Positions 15,228 through 63,876 of a stretch of DNA of 64,000 nucleotides are shown piece by piece. The stretch comes from Berberis thunbergii (taxonomy: Eukaryota; Streptophyta; Magnoliopsida; Ranunculales; Berberidaceae). The stretch is taken from positions 1 to 64,000 of the forward strand of contig QNQO01006973.1 of assembly GCA_003290165.1 (NCBI GenBank), read 5' to 3'. The translations under genes were made by a program, and so were the position numbers. The notes below the pieces were generated by a model. It was not told the DNA's origin, made no database searches, and saw nothing but the letters and a program-made list of their open reading frames with translations. Positions within the stretch are counted from its first letter, which is position 1; every line of letters begins with the position of its first letter.

Positions 15228-15279
15228 ATATACTACAAGAAAAATGCTCATTAATAGCATTTCAAAAACATTGTGTCTG

Positions 15280-15450
15280 CCGAAGCTATAATAGACCCAT
15301 GGTCTATTATAGCATTTTAAAAACGCTATAGTAAGTTTGCCTTTATAGCCTTTCAAAAACACTATGGTAGACTATACCATAGCATTTCTGAAACGCTATC
15401 GTAGACTATACCATAGCGTTTCTGAAACGTTATTGTAAGTATACATAGCA
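15280..15450. repeat. CACTA-1 left subterminal repeats
   Basis: Several short inverted and direct units built on TAGCATTTCNNAAACGCTAT, with related units at 21775-21885 at the other end. These are the expected transposase-binding arrays of CACTA elements. Confidence 0.7.
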
Positions 15451-16124
15451 AATTTTTTTTTTTTTTTGCTATTAAGTGACTTTTTATTACATCTTATAAG
15501 TTTTATTTCTAGAAAATAAAAATTTAAATGTGCCAAACTTAAACATTTCCATAAATGGAGGCAAAGTAATATAATTAATGAGATAATGTATTACATCGAG
15601 TCACAAAATATTTTCAGCTTTTCAATACCTAAATAAAAAACTAAATTTAAAGTATCACAACTCCCTGTATTAACACCTTAACCACCTCAACAGAACCTCA
15701 ATCATCTTCATCAATCCACATCAACAGAGCGCTCCATTTTCCAGTAGGAGCTCGACCAATCAGCAACTTGATCACAACGCCTCTTGCTAGCCTCGCTCAA
15801 TCATCAAAGTCCCTGAAAATAATGTATAAGACTGTCAGATAGTTAAGGAAGGCTTCATGACCTCAATCAGCAAAGTCCCTGAAAACAATTGTTAGCTAGA
15901 CCTTAATTTATTTTCATGGAAACTTTGAAGGAGAACAAAGGGAGGTTTCAAGACTATGTAATTACTTGAGATTTATTTGACCCAGCCCCAGTCCCAGTCC
16001 CAGTCCAAAAACACGATGAACTACCTAGGACTGCTCTCAAAGAGCAGATATAGATACCTGACCCAGCCCCAGTCCAAAAAATCCATGAAGGCCCCTTGGC
16101 CTCATACACCTGGAACCTGCATTA
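15451..16124. other. CACTA-1 interior, left part
   Basis: AT-rich, then a small duplicated GACCCAGCCCCAGTCC unit (about 15979 and 16059). I recognise no exon, although captured fragments too short to see may be present. Confidence 0.35.
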
Positions 16125-16163
16125 TCAAATGCGGCTTCCGTCTGTCACCACTATCAGTTCAAC
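16125..16163 (-). pseudogene. Possible captured malic enzyme exon fragment
   Basis: Directly after an acceptor-like TGTTACAG the minus strand reads VELIVVTDGSRI. This resembles the 'VDMIVVTDGSRILGLGDLG' block of NAD-malic enzymes, but the match is only about 12 residues and is followed by stops. It lies in the same orientation as the other captured exons. Chance similarity cannot be excluded. Confidence 0.33.
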
Positions 16164-16860
16164 CTGTAACAAATGGAAGATAAACCAGAAATGTGAAAAG
16201 TATTAAATAGTTCATACAGTAAATGTTCTCATTATGTAACAGTCAATCCCAGAAAATTCATCAACATTCATAAAGGAATGACAATATACTGGTCTAACAT
16301 TAAATGTGATCATGCAAAAAGTCATATATAGAGATAGTTGGGGAAATTTACTGAAGAGAGTTGTAGCTAGAACATGTACCTGAACTTAATTTCTTTACTA
16401 GCACTGTGAGCAGTAACAACACCCTGCACGCTTTAGTCTCGCCCAAACCACTGCCAAAATCCAGCACTTAATCACATAACATACAAGCAGCAATATAGGA
16501 CGCTCCAGGGTGCGTCAAGACAGAGTACTCTGTAAAAAACAAAGCACTCTGTCCAGTGCCATTCTTGGACAGATTAGTCACCGTGCAAACCTGCAAGCAA
16601 CCCGGCTGCTCCTCCGTGGTTTTGGCGCATCAAACCGGTGAATACTCCTGCATGCTCCTGAAGTATTTGCAACTCTGACCTCCAGAGTGCATGACCGCAC
16701 CATGGAATGATCGAAACCAGTGACGGCCCAATTTGTCCATTAAGCCTGTCCAGGTCCTCGGCCACCAGCCATGCTGCTCCGCAACCCAGCACTCCCAATC
16801 TGTGACCTACACTGATTTACCTTGTAGAGAGCCTGAAAGGAACTACATTAAAGTGCATAC
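16164..16860. other. CACTA-1 interior, unrecognised GC-richer patch
   Basis: 16560-16800 is richer in G+C than its surroundings and open on the minus strand for 74 codons, including MGVLGCGAAWLVAEDL. I recognise no family. It may be another captured fragment or the lost 3' part of the MADS gene locus. Confidence 0.3.
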
Positions 16861-19030
16861 CAAGATGCAACTGAGGTGCTTATTCTCCTCCTCTAGCATT
16901 CTTTCCTATAAAACAATTGTTGGCACAAGGAAGAAAAATTAGGAAGATGGTCAATCAAATTTCTCTTTTGGAGAACATGGAGTTGTTTTCTCATAATTCT
17001 TATACCCAAATGGGTAAAACACAACCAACAAGTTATCCATAGCTCTGGTTACCAATAATAGAAAACTCGAAATCAATCAATCAATCAATCAAAGAAGAGA
17101 GAGCAAATGTTGTTTGTTAGTCCACCAATTGTAGCTCAGTTGGTCGGACATTCACTCTCCTTGTGAGAGATCGCGGGTTCGAGACTCACCAGTTAGGATT
17201 TTGTGAGTTTTTGCCCGATTATTAGGAGCACATTTGCTTCGCCGTTGATAAGCCTTCGGGTATTGAATGCAGCTACTTAGATGGACTAGATCGGAGAGAA
17301 GCGAAAGCGAGTCTTCATGCAAGGTGGAGGCGATGGGTCGGAGCGAAAGCAAGTCTCTATGCGAGATGGAGGCGACGAGGACATTAAGTGGCAACAATAT
17401 TGTAGCCTTCGGGTCTAGTTTGGTTAACCCTATTGGGTCAGTCATGTAGCCTTCGGGCATGAATTCATAAATAAATAAAAAGGGTCAACGACCCAATTAA
17501 AAAAAAAAAAAAAAAAATGTTGTTTGTTAGTTGATCGTAATAAAAACTTACCTTTTTCTTAATCATTTTGAGGTACTCCGTCAGTCAAACAATTAAAAAC
17601 AACAAAGAAGTAAGATCTTGACTTAACCCTTTCAACTCCCAAAAAGCTTAAATTGAAAAGAAAAGTTAGCTATAAATGAATGTTACCTGTTTAGTTCTGA
17701 CCTTAGTGAGGCCATTTTGGAGGGCTTCTTCAATAGGGATAAGCTCTTTAGGATGGAGTGAGGTGAGATCCTCCCCCTTCAAATGCCTACATGGAAGAAA
17801 TAAGAAGTTCACAAAGAAATGTAGAAGAGATCACCCAAACGAGATTTTTGATTGCTCAAGATCCCAACATACAAAATCTTACTACCAAAAGAAAAGAAGA
17901 AAAAACAAAAGATACTGACCTGAGTTCAATCTGAATATTATCATTCTCTTTCTTGACTATATCCACTTCAGTGTTAAGATACTGCCAGTTTTTCAGTGTT
18001 AGTTTACTTCATATCTTGAGAAGCTAGAAGAAAATTTATATACAAAACGCTAAACTCTTATGTATATATACATATACATATTAGCTACGCTAGTTATAGA
18101 TATGGTTGATATGATATGACCACATCAGAGAAAGAAGAGGTATATATAGTGGATAAAAGAAGAGATGAAAGAGAGAACATGCATTTAAACTAGATCTGTT
18201 CATAATAATTCACTATAGTTTTGACAACAAGTTTATTAAAAAAGTTTATGTATTTGAACAACCAAAAACACATATTAATAAAGTAAATATATATACCCAC
18301 GAATCTATTCACTAAAACAAGCAAGGATGCCCATTCAAACAATATAGTATAAAAAGGGATATTAACATTTGTTTTTCTTGTTTGTGTGTTATTCAGCAAA
18401 GAAGTTTCAAGCACGGATTTCAAGTGGACAGCAAGATAAAGCAAATTCTTGCAATAGCTAGTAAGAACATATATTTGTTTAATTAGTTTTTTATGCAACA
18501 AATACCATATGATTTTAGTTATCAGAACTAAAAAAAAAAAACCTCAATGTGGAAGGATAAGATGGATCTATCTACTCAGAAAGATCAAAAAACACAGCAT
18601 CCATGCAAAAGATAAAACTCATAAACACATAACTTGGGGGAAACTAGAGATTGCTGAATTAGTAGATCTGGAAAGAAAAATTACTTATGAAAAGATCCAT
18701 AGCTCATTCACTTCAACACCAACCCAAAAATAAATTATAGTAATAAAAAAAAAAAAATTCTACCTCATGCTTTGCATCCCACAACTTCTTCCCTGGAGCC
18801 TTTTGGTATCTATCCAAGATCTTAATCAACCTTTTACCAAAAAAATTACAGAAACAAGTCAACAAAAATATATAAATACATATAAAAAAAATTATAATGA
18901 AAGAATTATGAGTGGACATACGAGGTGGAAGGGCTGCAATACTCAGACATCTTGCCAGTCCCAGAGTAAATATAACAAGAGAAACCTCAGCCTCACAAAG
19001 AACATAAATCTCTATAGCTTTCTTCATGAT
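16861..19030 (-). pseudogene. PI: Captured PISTILLATA/GLOBOSA MADS-box gene, exons 1 (3' part) to 6
   Basis: Minus-strand exons. Partial exon 1, 19030-18923: IMKKAIEIYVLCEAEVSLVIF, then after a frameshift GKMSEYCSPST. Exon 2, 18830-18764: LIKILDRYQK, KKLWDAKHE. Exon 3, 17981-17920: TEVDIVKKENDN. Exon 4, 17786-17687: HLKGEDLTSLHPKEL, IEEALQNGL. Exon 5, 17581-17552: EYLKMIKKK. Exon 6, 16905-16861: RMLEEENKHLS. Exons 2-6 are 67, 62, 100, 30 and 45 bp, which to my knowledge is the size series of PI-type B-class floral genes. The sequence covers the end of the MADS domain, the I region and most of the K box. The DNA-binding N-terminus and the C-terminal PI motif are absent. A frameshift in exon 1 and a lost AG before exon 5 make it a pseudogene. 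Confidence 0.9.
17122..17514 (+). mobile_element. tRNA-derived SINE in the fifth PISTILLATA intron
   Basis: Starts with a tRNA-like head: an A-box region TAGCTCAGTTGGTCGGAC (about 17132) and a B box GGGTTCGAGAC (about 17173). It ends in an A-run at 17499-17517. It is flanked by a 17-bp target duplication, AAATGTTGTTTGTTAGT, at 17105-17121 and 17515-17531. The body holds a ~42-bp tandem pair (AGCGAAAGCGAGTCTTCATG / AGCGAAAGCAAGTCTCTATG). RNA polymerase III would transcribe such an element, and LINE machinery would move it. The perfect duplication marks a fairly recent insertion. Confidence 0.92.
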
Positions 19031-19149
19031 CTATAATAAACAGAAAATGGCAATTACAAGCAACACCTATTCCTTACTAATTCCAGAATTATTTTGATAT
19101 CTAGGAGAAGAAAACGATCTAAATAGTACATGCAATGAAATTGATATAC

Positions 19150-20564
19150 CTTCCACTTTGCACCCTTGAAAAGTACAAAATTCATATCAAGTAGCTTATT
19201 GAGTTGTTCAAGCTCAATCATGGCACCTGCAATTCCATTCACTAATCTATTGTCATTTTCAGCGTTAAAGAAACATCCACAATCCTTTGCATCTAGAACT
19301 AACTTCGTCCAAACTGTATCACTGTCGAGTAAAGTTTGCTCATATCCCACAATCCATAGGCAATACCTGGAAGCAAATTACAAAATCCAACTATGTTCAT
19401 TTTTAGAAATTTGGCCACATCGAGACCATCAAAATAATGAACAGAAATAGGAATAATTTTCCATATTTACCTTGCTCTTGTCAGAGCCACATTTGTCCTC
19501 TAATGTTTGTCAAGGAAACCCACATCACCCTTCTCATTTGACCTTACAGTACTGATAATTATTACATCTTCCTTGCCACCGTGAAACCCATCAACATACC
19601 GAATGCTCAACGAGAAGTTACTATCTGTCTTGTATTTGTCACCAAGCTCCTTTTGCAGCAAAAAAACTTGTGATTTATACTGAGAAATAATGCCAACACT
19701 GATCTTCTGTTTGTTCGAACTTGCAGCTGCAACACCGACACTATTATAGACAACTTCATTGTCAATTATTAAAAATTAAATAAGGGCAATTCAATAAAAC
19801 CGACCTTCATAAAGCTTTGCAACAATCTCAGAGACCACAGCTGACTCCACTGGATTTCTTAGGCTATGTCCATTAACTAAAACCTCATTCCCATACCCAA
19901 CATTGATAAATGAATAAGGTCCATACATGTCTCCTTGAAGCAAATCTTTCTTGTAGATACTTTCTCTCACACTAGAAGCATCAGAAATATGATTGCCATA
20001 GAACATGCTATTAGGGAATAAGCTTATGGCAGGGTGCATTCTGTATTGGACATCAAGGAGGTGCTTCCTCTGACCCAGCAACACCAATCTCTCAAACATA
20101 CTTTTTCCAAAGTCAGCTTCCATACAAATCTATTAAGCAGAAAAAAAAATATTGTAACAATACAACAAATTGTGATCAAGCATGCAAAGCTAAGAGAATA
20201 CAGACAATAAGAAGATAAACAAACCTGGCTTTTGAGCATTGCAGGCAATTGACATTCATCACCAACTAGTATTGCATGCTGGATACCTGGAAGTAGTAGA
20301 GGAACAACTGATTCACACTCTTTAAGCTGGGCAGCCTCATCAATGACCAACATTTTCAATGGTTTCATTTCTTCTGTCTGTAAAGTAGACGAAGTCGATG
20401 TAGTGCAGAAGATAAGACAGGCATTTTGCAAACAAAATTCTTTGATTGAATTTGTATCACCAAACTCAGGAACTGAAAGCGATTTACGAAGAAAAGTACG
20501 TATTCGAATGAACTCTGCTTTGTTGTTATGTAACAACTCAGACAATGTATTTGAGTCTTTATCA
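19150..20564 (-). pseudogene. Captured SEN1/UPF1-like superfamily 1 helicase, four exons
   Basis: Minus-strand exons with GT/AG borders. Exon a, 20564-20226: motif II as LVIDEAAQLKE, then AILVGDECQLPAML. Exon b, 20129-19805: LLDVQYRMHPAISLFPN and NPVESAVVSEIV. Exon c, about 19728-19471: [26 protein letters not shown] and RTNVALTRAR (motifs V and VI). Exon d, 19366-19150: YCLWIVGYEQTL, VWTKLVLDAKDCGCFF. This is the C-terminal half of a plant SEN1-type RNA/DNA helicase; the Walker A part is missing. A stop replaces the residue just before RTNVALTRAR. Host function would be RNA processing or termination; this copy is a fragment. Confidence 0.9.
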
Positions 20565-20569
20565 CTGGA

Positions 20570-21203
20570 AGGAATTCAAGAAACAACTCAGATAATGTAA
20601 AAACCAGTAAAACACCAGGATTCGATCCACTTCATATCTTAAGAACAAACAAAGAAATTCAAGCTCCACTACAGTGAATGAAATCCATAAAAAAAAAACA
20701 TAAATTTTTTCTTAATCCAACAAAAAGAACCCAAAAAGAAGACGAAGTAAACCCCATCTATCAGAAGAAGAAGCTAACCTTGTTGTTGCTAACCCTGCAA
20801 GACCCACAAATTTCAAACCCCACAGAGAGGACAAAACTCAAACACCAAGCAATCAGAGCCGAGCAACATGCAATCAGAAATGAGAACTAATTATGCAGAA
20901 CCACCAATTCAAATCCCATAGAGGACAAACCTCAAACACATCATACAAATTAGAACCTCCACCCCATTTAGTCGGTTTTGCTTCTTAAACTTCATTCCTC
21001 CTCAAAGTCATTCAAAACAAATACAATCAACCAAACCCACGCCAAAATCCACCTAATCAACCCCCATTCACATAATCACCCACCAAACCAACACCCCCAG
21101 ATATCAAAATTCAACAAAAAACAACCAAAATCCAACATGCAAATTCACAATTAACACAAACAAACCAAAACCCATTAAGAAATCAAACCAAAAACACAAT
21201 TAC
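20570..21203 (-). other. Intron-like sequence between captured kinase exon and helicase exons
   Basis: A-rich on the plus strand (T-rich on the minus strand, as in plant introns) and without coding blocks. It begins (minus strand) with the GTAATT donor of the kinase exon and ends with the TTCCAG acceptor of the helicase exon, so the two fragments share one hybrid intron. Confidence 0.5.
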
Positions 21204-21452
21204 CTTCAAAACAGCAGGTTTTGTTGACAAACCATTGGGGAGGCTCTCAAGCTCAATAACTCTCCTTGCAATCTGAATGGGGAGCTCCTTGTGAAGAAAC
21301 TGAGCAGAGATGAGCAAGTTTTTCTCAGTGGGTTCAGACCCAAACTCCGTCATGTACCTCAAGCTGACCTCAGTTTATTTCATTCCACCCCATTTCTGTA
21401 CTTCCTCAATCAGAGCCTTGGAGAAGGTCTCAGATAATTTCTTGGCTGCCAT
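21204..21452 (-). pseudogene. PDK: Captured exon 1 of mitochondrial pyruvate dehydrogenase kinase
   Basis: The ATG at 21452 opens MAAKKLSETFSKALIEEVQK WGGMK; after an in-frame TAA where I expect CAA (Gln) it continues TEVSLRYMTEFGSEPTEKN, ISAQFLHKELPIQ and IARRVIELESLPNGLS, ending KPAVLK at a GTAATT donor. These are the conserved N-terminal residues of plant pyruvate dehydrogenase (acetyl-transferring) kinases, which phosphorylate and inactivate the E1 subunit in mitochondria. Only the first 83 codons are present, with no ATP-binding domain. The upstream stretch to about 21780, with GA-rich runs, may be the captured 5' UTR or promoter. Confidence 0.92.
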
Positions 21453-21908
21453 GGTTGAACAGTAAAAATGAAAGGGGTGAAGGGGGAGAAAAGGAAATTT
21501 GAAGGAGGAATTGAAAGCCCAGCATAGACAGAGAAGACCAACGGAGGTTACAAAGTAGAGGTTACCATGCGCAGAGTCAGTGAGTAACAATTCTGGAAGA
21601 GAGAGAGAGAGAACTGCTCGAAGGAGATGAGAGGTGAGTAAGAGGTCGAGCATAGAGAGGCAAGTAAGAAGGAGATGGGAGGCGAGCAAGAGGTCGAGCA
21701 AGAAAGAAATAAGAGGCGAGTTCTGTAGTGAGCGGGAGGAGAAGAGAGATAAAGTCGCGAAATACAAAAAAATTTGGCAGCGTCAAAACGCTCGCCAATT
21801 GACTATAGCGTTTTTCATTTGCAAAGTCATTCAAAATTGACTTTTTATAGTACATTTATAAAAAAACGCTATCGACAAATGCTATCAATGAGCATTTGTG
21901 TTGTCGTG

Positions 21909-22400
21909 ATAGGTCACTCCAACATATTTTTAACCAAAAGGTATTTTCTTGTAGCACTAAGTCCCCCTATCATTGAAGTTTTGGCTTTGTTGAGTTCGTA
22001 CATCATAATCTGATTATAACCTGAATAGGCATTAAGAAAGTTGAGCAACTAGTTATCAAATGTAGAGTATACTAACTGATCAATGCGAGGTAGGGGATAA
22101 TTGTCTTTGGGACATGCTTAGTTGAGGTTAGTGTAATCTACATAAACTCTCCATTTTCCTTTTTCTTATTTCTTGGCCAATACCACATTTGCCAACCATT
22201 CGGTGTAAGATACCTTTTCGATGAAATCGGTTGCCAAAAGCTTGGCTATTTCGGCTTCAATGATTGATACTTTTTCTGAGGCGAAATTTTGCATCTTCTG
22301 CACAATAGGCCTAAAGGTCAGGTCTACATGTAGTTTGTGGCAGATCACAATTGGATCAATTTCGGGCATGTCCGAGGCTGACCAAGCAAACATATCTTTG
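21909..22400 (-). pseudogene. Gypsy-1 RT N-terminal half
   Basis: Right to left: MFAWSASDMPEIDP (about 22393), a run through FIEKVSYTEWLANVVLAKK, then in pieces WRVYVDYTNLN, CPKDNYPLPRIDQLV, FLNAYSGYNQIMM and a CYKKIPFG block. It ends at the TAT codon where CACTA-1 is inserted. The order and motifs are those of gypsy RT fingers and palm. In-frame stops (for example after VDYTNLN) show decay. Confidence 0.88.
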
Positions 22401-31641: not shown

Positions 31642-32223
31642 TTACATTCTCAAATATTTTTTACCCCTAGCATCGTCGAAAATGATCTTCTTCATGTCCT
31701 TCGCAAAAGAGCTAGGAACCACCTCAAAAAACTCCACATTAGGCAGCAGATTTGCTAGCTTGTCCGCGGCTTTATTCGTCTCACGAACAACGTGTTTAAA
31801 TTTGCAGTCTTCGAACAAGTTGAGCATCTCTTTGATTCTTCTAGTAGTATGAATCGCCTCCCATGGAGGGGACTTGCTAGAATTGATATATTTTACTGCA
31901 TTGGCTGAGTCTATGCACATGATAACTTTTTGATGGTGCACTCTGCTTCCCATATTCAGGCCCATTTGAACTCCCTGAAGCTCATGCAAAATAACAGACT
32001 GACCTCTTTGAGTGTCTGCTGCTGCTGCAAGGACATTGCCCCTATGATCTCTAATAATTGCTCCATATCCTCCTCGATTTCCTTGCAATGTTCCGTCAGT
32101 ATTCACCGTTATCCAACCTTGTTCAGGACGATCCCAGGTGTGCCAAGTGCTGATCTTTAGCTGGTAATTAAGATCTAAATTCCATCTATTGAAGAAACTG
32201 CGAGTATGAGGATTGTCTTCCAC
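31642..32223 (-). pseudogene. LINE ORF2 RNase H domain
   Basis: 193 open codons with the type I RNase H residues in order: WITVNTDGTLQGN (Asp), HELQGVQMGL (Glu), CIDSANAVKYI (Asp), and VVRETNKAADKLANLL (final Asp). RNase H after the RT zinc-binding domain is known from plant L1 elements. A frame break separates it from the upstream domain at about 32230-32300. Confidence 0.88.
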
Positions 32224-32305
32224 TTTTGGATCCAGTACAAGAAGTCTTAATGATTACCATTGTTGTTAGATCCAGAGCTACCCTGTTTTTTTTATCGAAA
32301 ATTCT

Positions 32306-33298
32306 TCAGTTTCTTTCCAGCCATAAATGATATATCGTTGCATTAAACACTAGTTTCCTCGCCATAGATGTTGTTCCAGACCGTGCAAACTTAAGACTGC
32401 ACCACTGTAATTCTGCTGTCCAGCCTAGTGGTTGGCGGTTGTAACCCATGAAGTGAAGCATATAGGACCAGACCATGTTCGAGTAGCCGCAGGCGAAGAA
32501 AATATGTTCTTCATTCTCTGGATGCAGGTCACATAGGCAGCACTTGGAGCTGGTAATCTTCCTCCATTTGAGCAGCTTGTCCTGAGTTTTTAAACTCTTA
32601 TTCATTGCTAGCCAGCCAATGAAGCTGTGGCGAGGAATACGCCCTGTGAACCAAATAAGTTTCGTCCAAGGGGGGGCCGTTGCTTTACTTCTGAGAGCTT
32701 CGTATGCACTTTTGCTAGTGAATTCCTTATCTGAGCCTCCCTTCCAGATAACTTCATCCTTATAGTTGCAGTCTACCTCCACTGACTCGAGGTCCTCCCA
32801 TATTTCAGCAATTGAGTTTTTCAAGTCATCCCTTATACACCATTTACCTCCTCTGATCAATGCCTTGACCTTTGCTTTCTTATGGAGTACAGAGTTATAA
32901 GTCAGGTGTTGAGGAAACCTGTTCATCAGAATTCCTTTTGGATGCCACGGGGCTTTCCATAAAGAAGTGTCATTACCATCACCAATAACATGGGTGATTA
33001 AAGTGTTGGCTTGATCCCTGCAATTTAGAATGTTGCGCCAGCACCACGAGGCGTCTTTTGGGATCCCCATCAACCAGAAATCCCTACCTTTGATCAGATT
33101 TTTCTTGGTCCATTGGACCCATAGGGTGTCCTTGTTCGATACAATATTCCATATGTACCTTGTCATGGCTGCCATGTTAGTTGTCTTGATGCATCTCACT
33201 CCTAGCCCTCCTTCATTATAGGGGTGGCTGATTTTTTTCCAGTTAACAAGTGGGACTGAATGATATTTGTCTGATGCCGACCATAGGAAGTTTCTCAT
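32306..33298 (-). pseudogene. LINE ORF2 C-terminal region with zf-RVT domain
   Basis: 330 open codons. The N-terminal part resembles the post-RT region of plant LINEs (VNWKKISHPYNEGGLGVR, SWCWRNIL). The reverse-transcriptase zinc-binding domain follows: FTSKSAYEALR, IPRHSFIGWLAMN, TSSKCCLCDLHPENEEHIFF, ACGYSNMVW, giving the C-x2-C...H-x4-C spacing. It ends at a stop after HLWLERN. The unusually clean reading suggests a younger copy than most elements here. Confidence 0.9.
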
Positions 33299-33355
33299 AA
33301 TAGAAGTTTCTTTATATTCTTCTCTATTAAACTTTGAAGCTTATTAGCTTCATGA

Positions 33356-48461: not shown

Positions 48462-50839
48462 ATGAATTCAATTACTGAAATTGCTGCTAAAGACCTTAAT
48501 AGGCCCTTTCGTTTTGAGGGCCAACACTTTAAAAGATGGAGACAAAAGATGTTTTTTCTAACAACGCAAAAGGTTGCATATGTTTGTGATACTGAAAAAC
48601 CAACAATGCTTGCTGAACCTACTGAAACCCAAACTAAAGAATTAGACCGTTGGATTGAAACGATTTTTTATGTAAAAATTTTATCCTGAATGGTCTGTCT
48701 GGTGATCTTTATGATTATTACTGTACTGAACAAACTGCAAAAGATATTTGGGAAGCCCTTAAAAAGAAATATGAGACTGAGGAGGCTGGCACAAAGAAAT
48801 ATGCTGTCAGTCGCTATCTAAAATTTCAAATGACTGATGATAAGTCTGTGGAAACCCAATCACACGAGCTTCAAAAGATTGCTCATGAAATTATATCTGA
48901 GGGAATGACTTTAGATGAGCAATTTCAAGTAGCTGTTGTGATAGACAAATTGCCCCCTAGCTGGAAAGATTTTAAGAATGTCCTTAGGCATAAAACTAAA
49001 GAGTTTTCCCTAGAAAGCCTAATAACCCGACTTCGTATTGAGGAGGAAGCCAGGAAACAAGATCAGAAAGAGGAAGTTCTGATTATTTCAAACCATAAGA
49101 AGTCTACCCCTGTTTCTCTGAAACCCAATGGAAAGACAATGAAAACTCAGAATAACAATAAAAACCGGAACTATCAGAATCGGAACCAGCAGAACCGGAA
49201 CAATCAGAACCGCAACCATCAGAATCAGAATCCTCCGCGAAATCAGAATGGACAGAAACATCCCTCTAAGAATGATTCAGCACAGTTCCTTTGCTACACC
49301 TGTGGTAGGCCAGGGCATATGGCCAGGAACTGCCGGAATGGATCTCGTCCTGCACCTCATGCGAACCTAACCGAAGACCAACTTATTGCCATGATCTCTG
49401 AGATCAATTTTGTTGGTGGATCCGAGGGATGGTGGGTCGACACTGGTGCTTCTCGACATGTCTGCTATGATCGAGGAATGTTCAAGTCCTATTCTGAAGC
49501 TGAGGACAAGAAAGTGTTGTTGGGTGATTCCCACTCCACTATAGTTGCTGGAACCGGAACAGTAGAACTGAAGTTTACCTCTGGAAAAACAGTTATCCTG
49601 AAAGACGTCTTGCATACTCCAGAGATGAGAAAGAATCTAGTATCTGGTTTTCTTCTGAACAAGGCTGGGTTTACTCAAATTATAGGGGCTGATTTATATA
49701 CCATCACAACGAATAATGCATTTGTGGGGAAAGGGTATGCTACTGATGGGATGTTTAAGTTAAATGTTGAAGTGAATAAAATTTCTAATTCTGCTTACAT
49801 GTTGTGCACTTTTAATATCTGGCATGCTAGACTTTGTCATGTTAATAAACGTATTATTAAAAACATGAGTAACTTAGGACTAATTCCAAAATTGTCCTTA
49901 AATGATTTTGAAAAGTGCAACTATTGTAGTCAAGCTAAGATAACCAAAACACCACATAAATTTGTAGTTAGAGAATCTGAACCGTTAGATTTGATACACT
50001 CAGATATATGTGAACTTGATGGTATCTTGACTAGAAATGGAAAACGTTATTTTATTACGTTTATTGATGACTGCTCTGATTATACTTTTGTTTATTTAAT
50101 GAAAAATAAAAGTGATGCCTTTGACATGTTTAAATTATTTTTGACTGAAGTTGAAAATCAATATAATAGAAAGATTAAGAGACTTAGGAGTGATAGAGGC
50201 ACTGAGTATGATAGCAGTACTTTCATAGAGTTCTATAATTCTCAAGGGATTATTCATGAAACAACTGCACCCTATTCTCCTGAGATGAATGACAAAGCTG
50301 AAAGGAAAAATAGAACTCTTACCGAGTTAGTAGTTGCCATAATGCTTAACTCCGGTGCTGCATCGCACTGGTGGGGAGAAATTATCTTGACAGTCTGTTA
50401 TGTGCTAAATAGAGTCCCCAAATCGAAAAGCAAAACATCGCCCTATGAAATTTTGAAAAATAGACAACCAAACCTGTCTTATTTGAAAACTTGGGGTTGT
50501 TTAGCTTATGTTAGAATTCCTGATCCTAAAAGGAACAAGCTTGCTAGTAGGGCATATGATTGCGTATTAATAGGATACGCCATGAATAGCAAAGCTTATA
50601 GATTCTATAATCTTAAAGATCAAGTTATTATAGAATCAAACGACGTTGACTTTTATGAAGATAAATTTCCTTTTATTTCGAGGAATAGTGGGGGTACATC
50701 ATCATACAACGTACCTTTGCTCAGGGTTAATGAAAATATTAAAGCCACAGAATCTGAGCCAAGAAGAAGTAAACGGAAACGATCTTCTAAAAACTTTGGC
50801 CCGATTATTATGTCTTTTCAGTCGAAGAGGATCCCTTAG
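48462..50839 (+). pseudogene. Copia-2 gag, protease and integrase
   Basis: Gag starts at ATG 48462 (MNSITEIAAKD, FRFEGQHFKRWRQKM). A frameshift at about 48655-48670 changes frame; it then stays open to 50839. Counting residues from ATG 48830: an Asn/Gln/Arg-rich stretch at about 106-145, a zinc knuckle CYTCGRPGHMARNC at about 155, protease WWVDTGASRH at about 201, the integrase HHCC zinc finger at about 332-368 (HARLCH...CNYC), and the catalytic triad D392 (HSDIC), D455 (SDRGTEYD) and E491 (AERKN), with the usual 35-residue D-E spacing. It ends in a Lys/Arg-rich tail at a stop where RT should continue. Confidence 0.95.
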
Positions 50840-52370
50840 TTTTCAAGAGGCCCTATCCTCTATAGATGCCAATTTTTGGGAAGAAGCTATCGATGATGAA
50901 ATGTATTCTCTTGAGTCTAACAGAACCTGTCACTTAGTTGATTTGCCACCTGGTTGTAAGACAATAGGATGTAAATGGGTATTTAAGAAGAAATTGAAAC
51001 TCGATGGTAATGTTGACAAGTTCAAGGCTCGTCTCGTAGCCAAAGGGTATAGACAGAGAGAAAATGTTGATTTCTTTGACACATATTCTCCTGTAACCAG
51101 GATTACATCTATTCGAGTGTTAATTTCTCTTGCTGCAATACATAACCTAGTTTTGCACCAAATGGACGTTAAGACTGCGTTTCTTAATGGCGATTTGGAA
51201 GAAGAAATTTACATGGACCAACCTGAAGGTTTTGTTATTCCAGGACAAGAACATAAAGTTTGCAAACTAGATAAGTCACTTTACGGTTTGAAACAAGCTC
51301 CAAAACAATGGCATGAAAAATTTGATAATCTTGTTATCGCACATGACTTTAAAGTGAACGAAAGTGACAAATGCATTTACTATAAAGATGAAAATGGCAT
51401 TTGCACCATAATATGTCTGTATGTGGATGACTTACTTATCTTTGGTTCTAATATCCATGCCGTGAATAAAGTGAAAGCTTTATTGTGTGCAAACTTTGAT
51501 ATGAAAGACCTTGGAGAAGCGAGTGTAATCCTTGGTATCAAGATTACTAGGTCTGAAAAGGGAATTTCTTTGGATCAATCTCACTATATCGAGAAGATCC
51601 TAAATAAATATAATTACTCTGACTGTAAACCTGCATGTACTCCTTTTGACTCTAGTGTAAAGTTGTTCAAGAACACCGGTGACGGTGTTAGACAATCTGA
51701 GTATGCGAGCATCATTGGTAGTCTCAGATATGCTACCGATTGCACTAGACCCGACATAGCTTACGCTGTTGGATTACTATGCAGATTTACAAGTAGACCT
51801 AGTATAGAGCATTGGCATGCAATTGAACGGGTCATGAGGTACCTGAAGAGGACTAAGAACCTCGGATTATATTATCAGAAGTTTCCCACTGTCCTTGAAG
51901 GATATAGCGATGCTGATTGGAACACCCTTTCAGATGACTCCAAAGCCACCAGTGGCTATATTTTCAATATAGCTGGTGGGGCTGTTTCTTGGAAATCTAA
52001 TAAACAGACCATTTTGGCACAGTCCACGATGGAGTCAGAGATTATAGCACTAGCCACGGCTAGTGAAGAAGCGGGTTGGTTGAGAAACCTGCTATCAGAG
52101 ATCCCTTTATGGGAAAGACCGATTCCAGCTGTCTTGATCCATTGCGATAGTACCGCGGCTATTGCAAAAATACAGAACCGTTATTATAACAGCAAGAAAC
52201 GACAAAAACGTCGTAAGCACAGCACAGTTAGAGAGTTTCTATCTATTGGTGCTGTGAGAGTGGATCATGTACGAACTGATGCGAACTTGGCTGATCCTTT
52301 GACGAAAGGATTAGCTAGAGAGAAGGTTTTCAAAACCTCGAAAGGAATGGGACTATTGCCCTTAGTTTGA
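50840..52370 (+). pseudogene. Copia-2 reverse transcriptase and RNase H
   Basis: Continues pol in a different frame: about two frame changes separate integrase from RT near 50800-50850. It is then open to the stop at 52370. Motifs: [70 protein letters not shown] and the active site [11 protein letters not shown] (about 51415). RNase H follows with [48 protein letters not shown] and [15 protein letters not shown]. All catalytic residues are visible. The upstream frame breaks are the only evident lesions. Confidence 0.95.
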
Positions 52371-62548: not shown

Positions 62549-63876
62549 TAGGGATGGCAGTGGGGCGGATTTTTACGGATATACGCCTCACCCAATCCGT
62601 ATGGGGCAGATTTGGATATGGCTAAATGGGTTTTGGGGCGGATACGGATATTCAAATAAAATCTGTCGAATATTCGGGGCGGATACGGATTTAGCCATAT
62701 CCGCCCCACGGATATCCGTTTAGGTATTGATATTACAAAAGTACCCTTAACCTTTTTATAAAAAAAAAAAAAACCATATCCAGCTCACTTTTTTTTTCTT
62801 TACAAAAAAAACCTTTTACAAAAGTACCCCACGGATTCACCTAATCACCTCTCTCTCACTTTTTCTTCTTTTTTTCTCTCTCTCGGATCAGACTCTGTTC
62901 TCTCTTCATGTTTTTGAGAAAACAGAAACTCTTCATTTTTTATCAGAGATTGTGAACTCTGTTCCTTCTTCTTCATTTTTTCTCAGAGAATCAGAAGAAG
63001 CCAAAGGTTCAAATAGAAGAACTGAAGAAGCCATCCTCTGCTATTCATGCTCTGCTCCGCCAGATGAAGCCAAAGGTCCAAATAGAAGAACCGAAGAACC
63101 ACCATCTCATCGGTTCATCCTCTGCTTTGCCGCATCGTTCCTTCTTCTTCTTGAAAAAAAATCGATCTAAAGAATCAGATCCGAGATCTGAGTATCTCAG
63201 ATCTAAGATCTCAAATCTGATATCTCAGATCAAAGTTCTTGATCAGATCAAAGTTCTCAGATCGAGATCGAGATCTGATATCTGAGATCTCAGATCCAGA
63301 TCAAAGTTCTCAGATCGAGATCTGATATCTGAGATCTCAGATCCAGATCTGAGAACTTTGATCAAATCTCAGATCCAAAGATCAGGTTTAGTTTTTATTT
63401 TTTTTGTAATTCAAATATATCAGATCAGGTTTATTTTTTTTTATTTTTGTAATTTTGTTATCCAAATATCTCAGGTATTTTTTTTTTGTAATACAAAGAT
63501 CTCAGGTTTTTTTTTTGGTATGGTTTTCTAACTCGTGTTGATCAGGTATTGATGTTGAGTTGTTATAATTCTTGTTTGGATTCTTACGGGTGTTAGAAAA
63601 GATGGATGAAGTATTTTTATTTTACTGATGAATGGTCTTTTACTGATCTTTGTTATAATTTTTGTATGGATTAATCTGTGTAAGATGGACAGTCTGGTGT
63701 TAGAGAACAAGAAAATTTTAACGGATATTTGGGCGGGGCGGATATTCGCCAATCCGTACGGTGCGGTGGTGGTTTTTAAATAAAATTACAAACGGATTGG
63801 CGGGGATCCGCTATTTCTGACGGGGCGGGGGTGGATTTGCTCAAATCCGCCCCAATCCGCCCCGTTGCCATCCCTG
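62549..63876. mobile_element. hAT element, 1,328 bp, inserted in a gene
   Basis: Ends TAGGGATGGCAGTGGGGCGG and, inverted, CAGGGATGGCAACGGGGCGG. A perfect 8-bp duplication AGCGATCG lies at 62541-62548 and 63877-63884. Subterminal arrays consist of GGATACGGAT, GGGGCGGAT and ATCCGCCCC words in both orientations. No transposase. It contains a tandem pair (AAGCCAAAGGTTCAAATAGA / AAGCCAAAGGTCCAAATAGA, about 63000 and 63067) and a GATC-rich palindromic run. Confidence 0.92.
63178..63385. repeat. GATC-rich palindromic low-complexity run
   Basis: Built almost entirely from AGATCTGAGATCTCAGATC-like words: many overlapping short palindromes (AGATCT, TGATCA, GATATC) and a larger inverted pair centred near 63320. 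Located in the middle of the hAT element. Confidence 0.85.

Follow-up and report, generated by a model that had tools for sequence, protein, structure and literature searches.

A 64,000-nucleotide stretch of the Berberis thunbergii genome (contig QNQO01006973.1, positions 1 to 64,000 of the forward strand; C6946:1-64000 in the genome searched), referred to here as the window, contains at positions 15231 to 21908 what is very probably a nonautonomous CACTA transposon. Within the element, pieces of three host genes, encoding pyruvate dehydrogenase kinase (PDK), a SEN1-type helicase, and a PISTILLATA (PI)-type MADS-box protein, were all found on the minus strand with their introns kept. The features of the element, in window coordinates, were as follows.

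15228..15230: left target site duplication (TSD), ATA, equal to 21909-21911; the flanks join into a reverse transcriptase frame.
15231..15262, plus strand: left terminal inverted repeat (TIR), starting TACTACAAGAAAAATGC and agreeing with the right end at 27 of 32 bases.
15345..15450: left subterminal repeats, 3.2 copies of a 34-bp unit of the TAGCGTTT...AAACGCTA type, from Tandem Repeats Finder.
15480..16840: left internal region, common to copies on C51/C5361 and C64 and partly to those on C5889/C100, from BLAST against the copies.
16835..19031, minus strand: PISTILLATA (PI/GLO MADS-box) piece, from protein search and the genomic PI gene on C725.
16861-16905, 17552-17581, 17687-17786, and 17920-17981, minus strand: PI exons 6, 5, 4, and 3, from splice-site motifs.
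18764-18830 and 18922-19031, minus strand: PI exon 2 and partial exon 1, from splice-site motifs.
17122..17515: short interspersed element (SINE)-like insert in PI intron 5, with an A-tail and a 15- to 16-bp target duplication, ATGTTGTTTGTTAGT.
19033..20576, minus strand: SEN1-type helicase piece, with PF13086 and PF13087 and a contiguous match to C1583.
20225-20576 (partial), 19805-20129, one ending at 19471, and 19150-19366, minus strand: SEN1 exons, with ends from splice-site motifs.
20577..20768: filler between SEN1 and PDK, matching no identified gene and present wholly or partly in other SEN1-PDK copies among 16 related loci.
20769..21560, minus strand: PDK-derived block, with exon 1 (21204-21452, with ATG and donor) and flanking sequence, from PF10436 and protein search.
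21528..21876: right subterminal region, with GA-rich repeats and TAGCGTTT motifs.
21877..21908, minus strand: right TIR, ending ...TTGTCGTG; the same right end was found at 12 of 16 SEN1-bearing element loci.
21909..21911: right TSD, ATA.

Comparison of the left arm with the whole 64-kb window gave a next-best inverted partner with 20 of 32 identical bases. Joining the flanks with one ATA produced a reading, CYKKIPFG*KYVGVTYQMLTNKIFKHLIEK, that runs continuously across the site in a broken, decayed Ty3-type reverse transcriptase frame. The ends, the TSD, and this reconstructed empty site together identify one insertion unit. The CACTA-type borders proposed in the initial annotation were therefore retained, with a correction to the left terminus, which is TACTA; the right terminus is CACGA, so that each is one base off CACTA. 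The sequence CACTA was present at the left terminus of the relatives L027, L028, L029, L040, and C1826. Both direct and inverted subterminal repeats, including the 34-bp array, were found near the two ends and, with the TIRs and the 3-bp TSD, place the element in the CACTA (En/Spm, CMC) class. Helitrons have 5'-TC ... CTRR-3' ends and lack TIRs and TSDs; assignment to that class was rejected because both are present here. A right border farther out, at a TTTTCTTGTAGCA stretch near 21957 noted by eye, was also rejected, since the reverse transcriptase frame of the joined flanks crosses this stretch and other copies stop at 21908. No transposase domain was found in the open reading frames (ORFs) of the element that were scanned (8 on the minus strand and 10 on the plus strand, the remaining ORFs being merely read), and neither Rfam nor ARAGORN produced a match in the window. 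An element free of transposase in the ORFs scanned, and carrying host coding DNA with parental genes identified for SEN1 and PI, corresponds to a Pack-CACTA.

Copies and parental genes were sought in 2.24 Gb of genomic sequence on 11,732 contigs. Forty of the first-look candidates were scored for each query, and the resulting match counts for the left end, SEN1, PDK, and PI are lower bounds. The SEN1 query yielded 42 matches from 40 scored of 275 candidates. Of the 20 regions examined around SEN1 matches, 16 were element loci and 4 covered the SEN1 gene loci on C1583 and C2083. The captured piece, with helicase domains PF13086 and PF13087 (E = 4e-17 to 4e-20), matched C1583 at 96.6% across 19033-20576, introns included, with homology ending at both edges. 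Judged from its sequence, C1583 carries the apparently intact SEN1-type source gene, with open helicase-core frames (read by eye), a GPPGTGKT motif upstream of the captured part, and coding sequence downstream. The Walker A region with this motif is missing from the window piece. The window and C1583 differed at 44 of 1542 sites, which at plant substitution rates would put its age, very roughly, at between one and a few million years. A nonsense codon was present in the third captured SEN1 exon; glutamine occupied this position in C1583 and in 12 of 16 other element loci, and the remaining 4, including the allelic copy described below, were frame-shifted there and left out of this comparison. 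C2083 was rejected as a second parental gene; because of its many small indels relative to C1583, it was taken for a counterpart that is either decayed or poorly polished. The C1583 region (L022:1-10000) contains tandem SEN1-type helicase genes that are about 81% alike, a cluster that apparently includes the gene from which the captured piece came.

The best protein match of the PI piece was a PISTILLATA-like protein of Stephania japonica (79%), followed by proteins of Akebia, Liriodendron, and Staphisagria, a set that probably places the host among the basal eudicots or magnoliids. Window positions 17533-19031 matched C725 and C8867 at 94%, and homology halted at 19031. Two stretches of the C725 gene were read, the middle not having been fetched; these included the start, MGRGKIEIKRIENS, and a PI-type C terminus, and aligned with window positions 18496-19031, 17515-17593, and 16835-17121. 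C725/C8867 was identified as the PI source, situated elsewhere in the genome, and the gene on C725 is apparently intact. The window holds PI from about codon 28 of exon 1 through exon 6. The beginning of the MADS domain is thus missing, and the exon 1 frame differs from that of the C725 gene. The SINE-like insert of 394 bp was absent from C51, from the C725 PI gene, and from C242, where the target is uninterrupted. Diverged relatives of this insert were seen near SEN1 genes (L022 and L034) and also in L042.

The genome search with PI gave 41 matches from 40 scored of 167 first-look candidates. A shorter PI piece, starting at 18617 or 18620 and running into SEN1, was found at 13 further places among those scored. 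Another 19 scored places matched only 17533-18021 (nine places at 84%, one starting at 17551) or 17533-18278 (ten places at 76 to 77%). The two of these 19 that were read (L051:1-1401 and L052:1-1201) carried the same PI-paralogue piece, covering exons 6 to 3 with a common intron-5 insertion and different end points. This second PI-type repeat probably represents a different PI copy that was amplified separately.

PDK exon 1 contained PF10436 (E = 3e-14) and retained its ATG and splice donor. In the protein search, 68 of 68 candidates matched, the best at 84%; of the seven named matches, four were annotated as pyruvate dehydrogenase kinase 2/3/4 and three as hypothetical or uncharacterised. 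PDK exon 1 had no match in the PDB. Codon 26 was a stop in the window and in the allele; in six other readable loci it was a stop (L030, L036, and L038) or glutamine (L031, L032, and L033). The genome search with PDK produced 40 matches from 40 scored of 511 candidates, and 26 of the 40 began at window positions 20768-20769. The gene identities and exon contents given in the initial annotation (PDK exon 1 with its ATG, four SEN1 exons, and PI partial exon 1 to exon 6) agree with these results. Its claim of capture at the DNA level is likewise borne out by the SEN1 identity across introns and by the kept PI introns, and the search of the host genome that it had proposed returned both related copies and SEN1 and PI source genes outside the element.

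With a 250-bp left-end query, 40 of 3453 candidates from the first look were scored and yielded 106 matches. PI was present in 3 of the 16 element loci (C242, C51, and C5361), PDK sequence in 11, and the right end in 12. As judged by 12 flanking bases, the right end occupies eight distinct sites including the window, always ending at the same base, and PDK was present at seven of these sites. C242 shared the insertion and the flanks of the window, with 28 differences in 6265 sites of the element (SINE excluded) and 10 in 1598 and 3 in 1130 sites of the flanks, and thus looks like an allelic copy. The unit of PI, SEN1, and PDK was seen only in the window and this allele. Complete relatives with other contents were also found. 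One, L028 on C2473, was 6.7 kb long with TSD CCT/CCT; another, on C1826, was 11,024 bp long with TSD TCT/TCT and a weak match to a cyclic-nucleotide-binding domain (E = 0.0074).

The copy on C51 (L041:2-5866) carried minus-strand TNP2 (PF02992, E = 1.7e-60), Transpos_assoc, TNP1/EN/SPM, and DUF4216 domains downstream of a window-like left end and PI and SEN1 pieces. C51 was not accepted as a proven autonomous partner; no right end with a matching TSD was found, and the candidates at 15262 and 18016 disagreed with the left flank. In C51 and C5361 the order was the left half of the window element, about 1475 bp of extra sequence, PI, and SEN1 up to window position 20668, and in C51 the PI piece extended into exon 7. 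The extra segment is presumably an H+-ATPase piece, as read from a sequence motif; one haloacid-dehalogenase match in the family scan (E = 4.8e-6) was assigned to this segment without a separate scan. In the window, the junction 16840/16835 stands where C51 holds the extra sequence, with about 6 bp common to both sides, and from this alignment the window copy looks like a deletion derivative of a C51-like arrangement. C125, the one inspected among the places with the shorter PI piece, had two further pieces adjoining the PI piece, one of biotin carboxylase (PF02785, E = 1.4e-4; PDB, 3e-13) and the other of a photosystem I light-harvesting protein (PF00504, E = 2.8e-4; PDB, 2e-40 at best).

Among the 16 loci, the combination of SEN1, PDK, and the right end was seen at six sites besides that of the window, with different left halves, and at a further site, on C1, a shortened SEN1 piece was joined to PDK with the filler 20577-20768 absent between them. 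The aligned left breakpoint of SEN1 was the identical base in two PI-bearing and two PI-less copies, which indicates that SEN1 was probably captured once and that the left partner changed later, or that PI joined exactly there. In a SEN1 tree of 20 rows, the copies radiated, mostly as allele-like pairs, from near C1583, which had a very short branch; seven pairs were starred. Because relatives also carry SEN1 joined to PDK, the initial claim that the element captured three genes holds for the presence of three unrelated pieces and not for their capture by this copy, which from these comparisons is a recombined patchwork. Growth probably proceeded by stepwise capture together with recombination or template switching at short homologies, and past movement most likely depended on transposase acting in trans, as the TNP2- and TNP1-type domains beside the matching part of C51 would suggest.

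Taken together, these results make us highly confident that 15231-21908 is a nonautonomous Pack-CACTA transposon of the CACTA (En/Spm) class that carries pieces of three host genes and sits within a decayed Ty3-type retrotransposon, and that its family reshuffles such pieces. Several observations weigh against this interpretation. A parental gene was identified for SEN1 and PI and none for PDK, and the limits of the PDK part proper are therefore unfixed. Five of the 16 element loci were without the PDK piece, and four more (L025 to L028) had a truncated exon 1. At the site of L028, L027, which carries a ubiquitin-conjugating-enzyme piece, had a duplication differing by one base (GCT/CCT), and L040 (C64) had both ends with a mismatched TSD (CAC versus ACT). 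The right end of C51 was unconfirmed, which makes C51 at most a candidate for a single, autonomous element. Eight of the 17 inner branches of the SEN1 tree were open, and either the PI-SEN1 junction or the other SEN1 junction may have come first.

The alternative that survives best concerns how the element originated. It may be a hybrid assembled from two older CACTA elements, one supplying the left half and the other the right; the halves do differ in history, SEN1, PDK, and the right end being combined with at least three different left halves, and an origin of Pack-TYPE elements from neighboring insertions has been proposed (PMC8903248, PMC13317346). We consider such an origin a serious contender, although not the favored one. 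It would describe how one element arose and not another object, as the ends, TSD, and empty site indicate a single insertion unit.

The orientation of captured pieces in the Pack-CACTA family was examined on both strands. On the minus strand, the longest 60 of 72 ORFs of at least 58 amino acids, from eight stretches of fetched copies, were compared with Pfam at E ≤ 0.01. Ten families were found, including five of transposon type (Transposase_21, Transpos_assoc, Transposase_23, DUF4216, and DUF1258, which overlapped the first), four from captured genes (UQ_con, Hydrolase, PK_Tyr_Ser-Thr, and cNMP_binding), and Pox_A_type_inc, a probable coiled-coil artefact. On the plus strand, no match at E ≤ 0.01 was found in 69 ORFs (55 from family copies, 10 from the window element, and 4 from C125). 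The plus-strand ORFs of the window element gave two unrelated matches above the cutoff (0.011 and 0.064), and the four from C125 gave none at 0.1. Nine captured types were thus all on the minus strand: PDK, SEN1, PISTILLATA, ubiquitin-conjugating enzyme, cyclic-nucleotide-binding protein, protein kinase, H+-ATPase-like, photosystem I light-harvesting, and biotin carboxylase. The transposase-type domains of C51 share this strand.

A sign test on the nine types gave a two-sided P of 0.004, a value affected by nonrandom sampling, follow-up of mostly minus-strand ORFs, several weak matches, and neighbors that were possibly captured together. For the five types with copies in which both ends were found (PDK, SEN1, PI, ubiquitin-conjugating enzyme, and cyclic-nucleotide-binding protein), P was 0.06. 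It is conceivable, albeit rather unlikely, that captured pieces are kept only on the transposase strand through a strand filter acting at capture or later in this family. Such a filter could arise if the transposase transcript can be freed of sense pieces by splicing but is disrupted by antisense ones. No universal strand rule applies to CACTA elements, as a grapevine element with a PPR piece antisense to the transposase is described (PMC2528002), which also slightly lowers the likelihood of a filter here. One-strand placement was not seen reported for Pack-CACTAs in the portions of the literature available, where the statements on orientation turned up by a search concern neighboring insertions; this is weak evidence of absence. 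If true genome-wide, the pattern would be informative on how such elements tolerate cargo. For the window element taken singly, the initial annotation called the shared orientation of three genes unusual, a description that is not supported; its chance with random strands is 1 in 4, and multigene CACTA elements are already documented by soybean Tgm-Express1 (5.7 kb, five host gene fragments; PMC1947982) and by maize Pack-CACTAs, in which one element often holds several loci (PMC8903248).

In all probability the gene pieces are carried as passengers. If they have any biological effect, it would most likely come from low-level spliced or small RNAs rather than protein. Splice motifs were largely retained in the pieces, so that the element, were it transcribed, could yield spliced RNA of the kind made by Tgm-Express1. 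A regulatory role, in which sense PDK, SEN1, and PI transcripts feed small RNAs that silence PISTILLATA or other parents and the pieces are under selection, appears improbable. It would fit the placement of the three pieces on one strand, the persisting splice motifs, and the multisite occurrence of PI-derived pieces noted above, but sense pieces by themselves give no antisense RNA, the PDK and SEN1 stops mark the pieces as decaying, and among the 16 SEN1-bearing element loci the order of PI, SEN1, and PDK was shared by the allele only.

Still less probable, to the point that we give it very little credence, is a chimeric gene in which the PDK upstream piece drives a spliced PDK-SEN1-PI protein. 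PDK exon 1 does retain an ATG and a donor, the next acceptors on the same strand are those of SEN1 and PI, and spliced chimeric RNAs are known from Tgm-Express1 (PMC1947982). A chimeric protein is nevertheless unlikely, as judged from the sequence, because of the PDK stop at codon 26 in both alleles, the SEN1 stop, the missing Walker A, and a PI exon 1 that lacks the MADS-domain start and is in a frame unlike that of the C725 gene. That the element is instead an ordinary run of adjacent host genes with chance CACTA-like ends, as retained introns and a single strand for all three might suggest, is hardly credible; this arrangement, under which the reading of the initial annotation would have failed, is ruled out for SEN1 and PI, whose source genes lie on separate contigs with homology stopping at the piece edges and whose repeated copies share the same internal breakpoints.

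Elsewhere in the window, overlapping Ty1/copia-type retrotransposon frames of 726 and 578 amino acids were noted by eye from the ORF list at 48659-52370. Long minus-strand frames at 31642-33340 resembled, by eye, RNase H and the C-terminal part of a long interspersed element (LINE)-type reverse transcriptase, and a dense AGATCTGAGATC tandem array was present at 63175-63375.

The Pack-CACTA element described here is an example of a known process and not of a new one. It shows exon shuffling by a CACTA family in good resolution, with source genes, breakpoints, relatives carrying other gene mixtures, a relative with the longer arrangement, and a later SINE insertion all open to comparison in a single genome. 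The captured floral B-class gene, together with the repeated PI-paralogue piece, also offers a place to ask whether an essential regulator is targeted by small RNAs from multicopy gene pieces. Among the titles and abstract openings from which the literature was judged, no capture of PI by a CACTA element was found, which is weak evidence of absence.

The element resembles the Pack-CACTA and Pack-TYPE elements of Arabidopsis, rice, and maize in that host coding DNA is flanked by CACTA TIRs and a 3-bp TSD, that one element can hold several loci, and that DNA is gained by the joining of elements (PMC8903248, PMC13317346). It differs from the Pack-CACTAs described there in that the captured pieces identified were all on one strand of the family. 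In grapevine Cactavine-5, likewise a CACTA element, a piece of a host PPR gene was captured next to the transposase ORF, but it is opposite in orientation to the transposase (PMC2528002). The CACTA-like Jozin elements of Chenopodium also carry pieces of floral development genes, in that case AP2; the AP2 piece is 80 bp long and lies in the 5' region, outside the coding sequence (PMC8978399). Here, in contrast to Jozin, most of a PISTILLATA gene was captured, in a copy without transposase domains. Helitrons form another transposon class, without TIRs and TSDs. The stepwise buildup of gene pieces traced here through related copies nonetheless has a parallel in the Helitrons of maize (PMC3288121). 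In content the element resembles Tgm-Express1, a CACTA element of similar length in which exon and intron pieces from several unrelated host genes are combined; Tgm-Express1 interrupts an intron of a gene that is expressed, and chimeric RNAs from it have been cloned, whereas the element described here lies in a decayed retrotransposon, was characterized from DNA sequence, and carries pieces of other genes.

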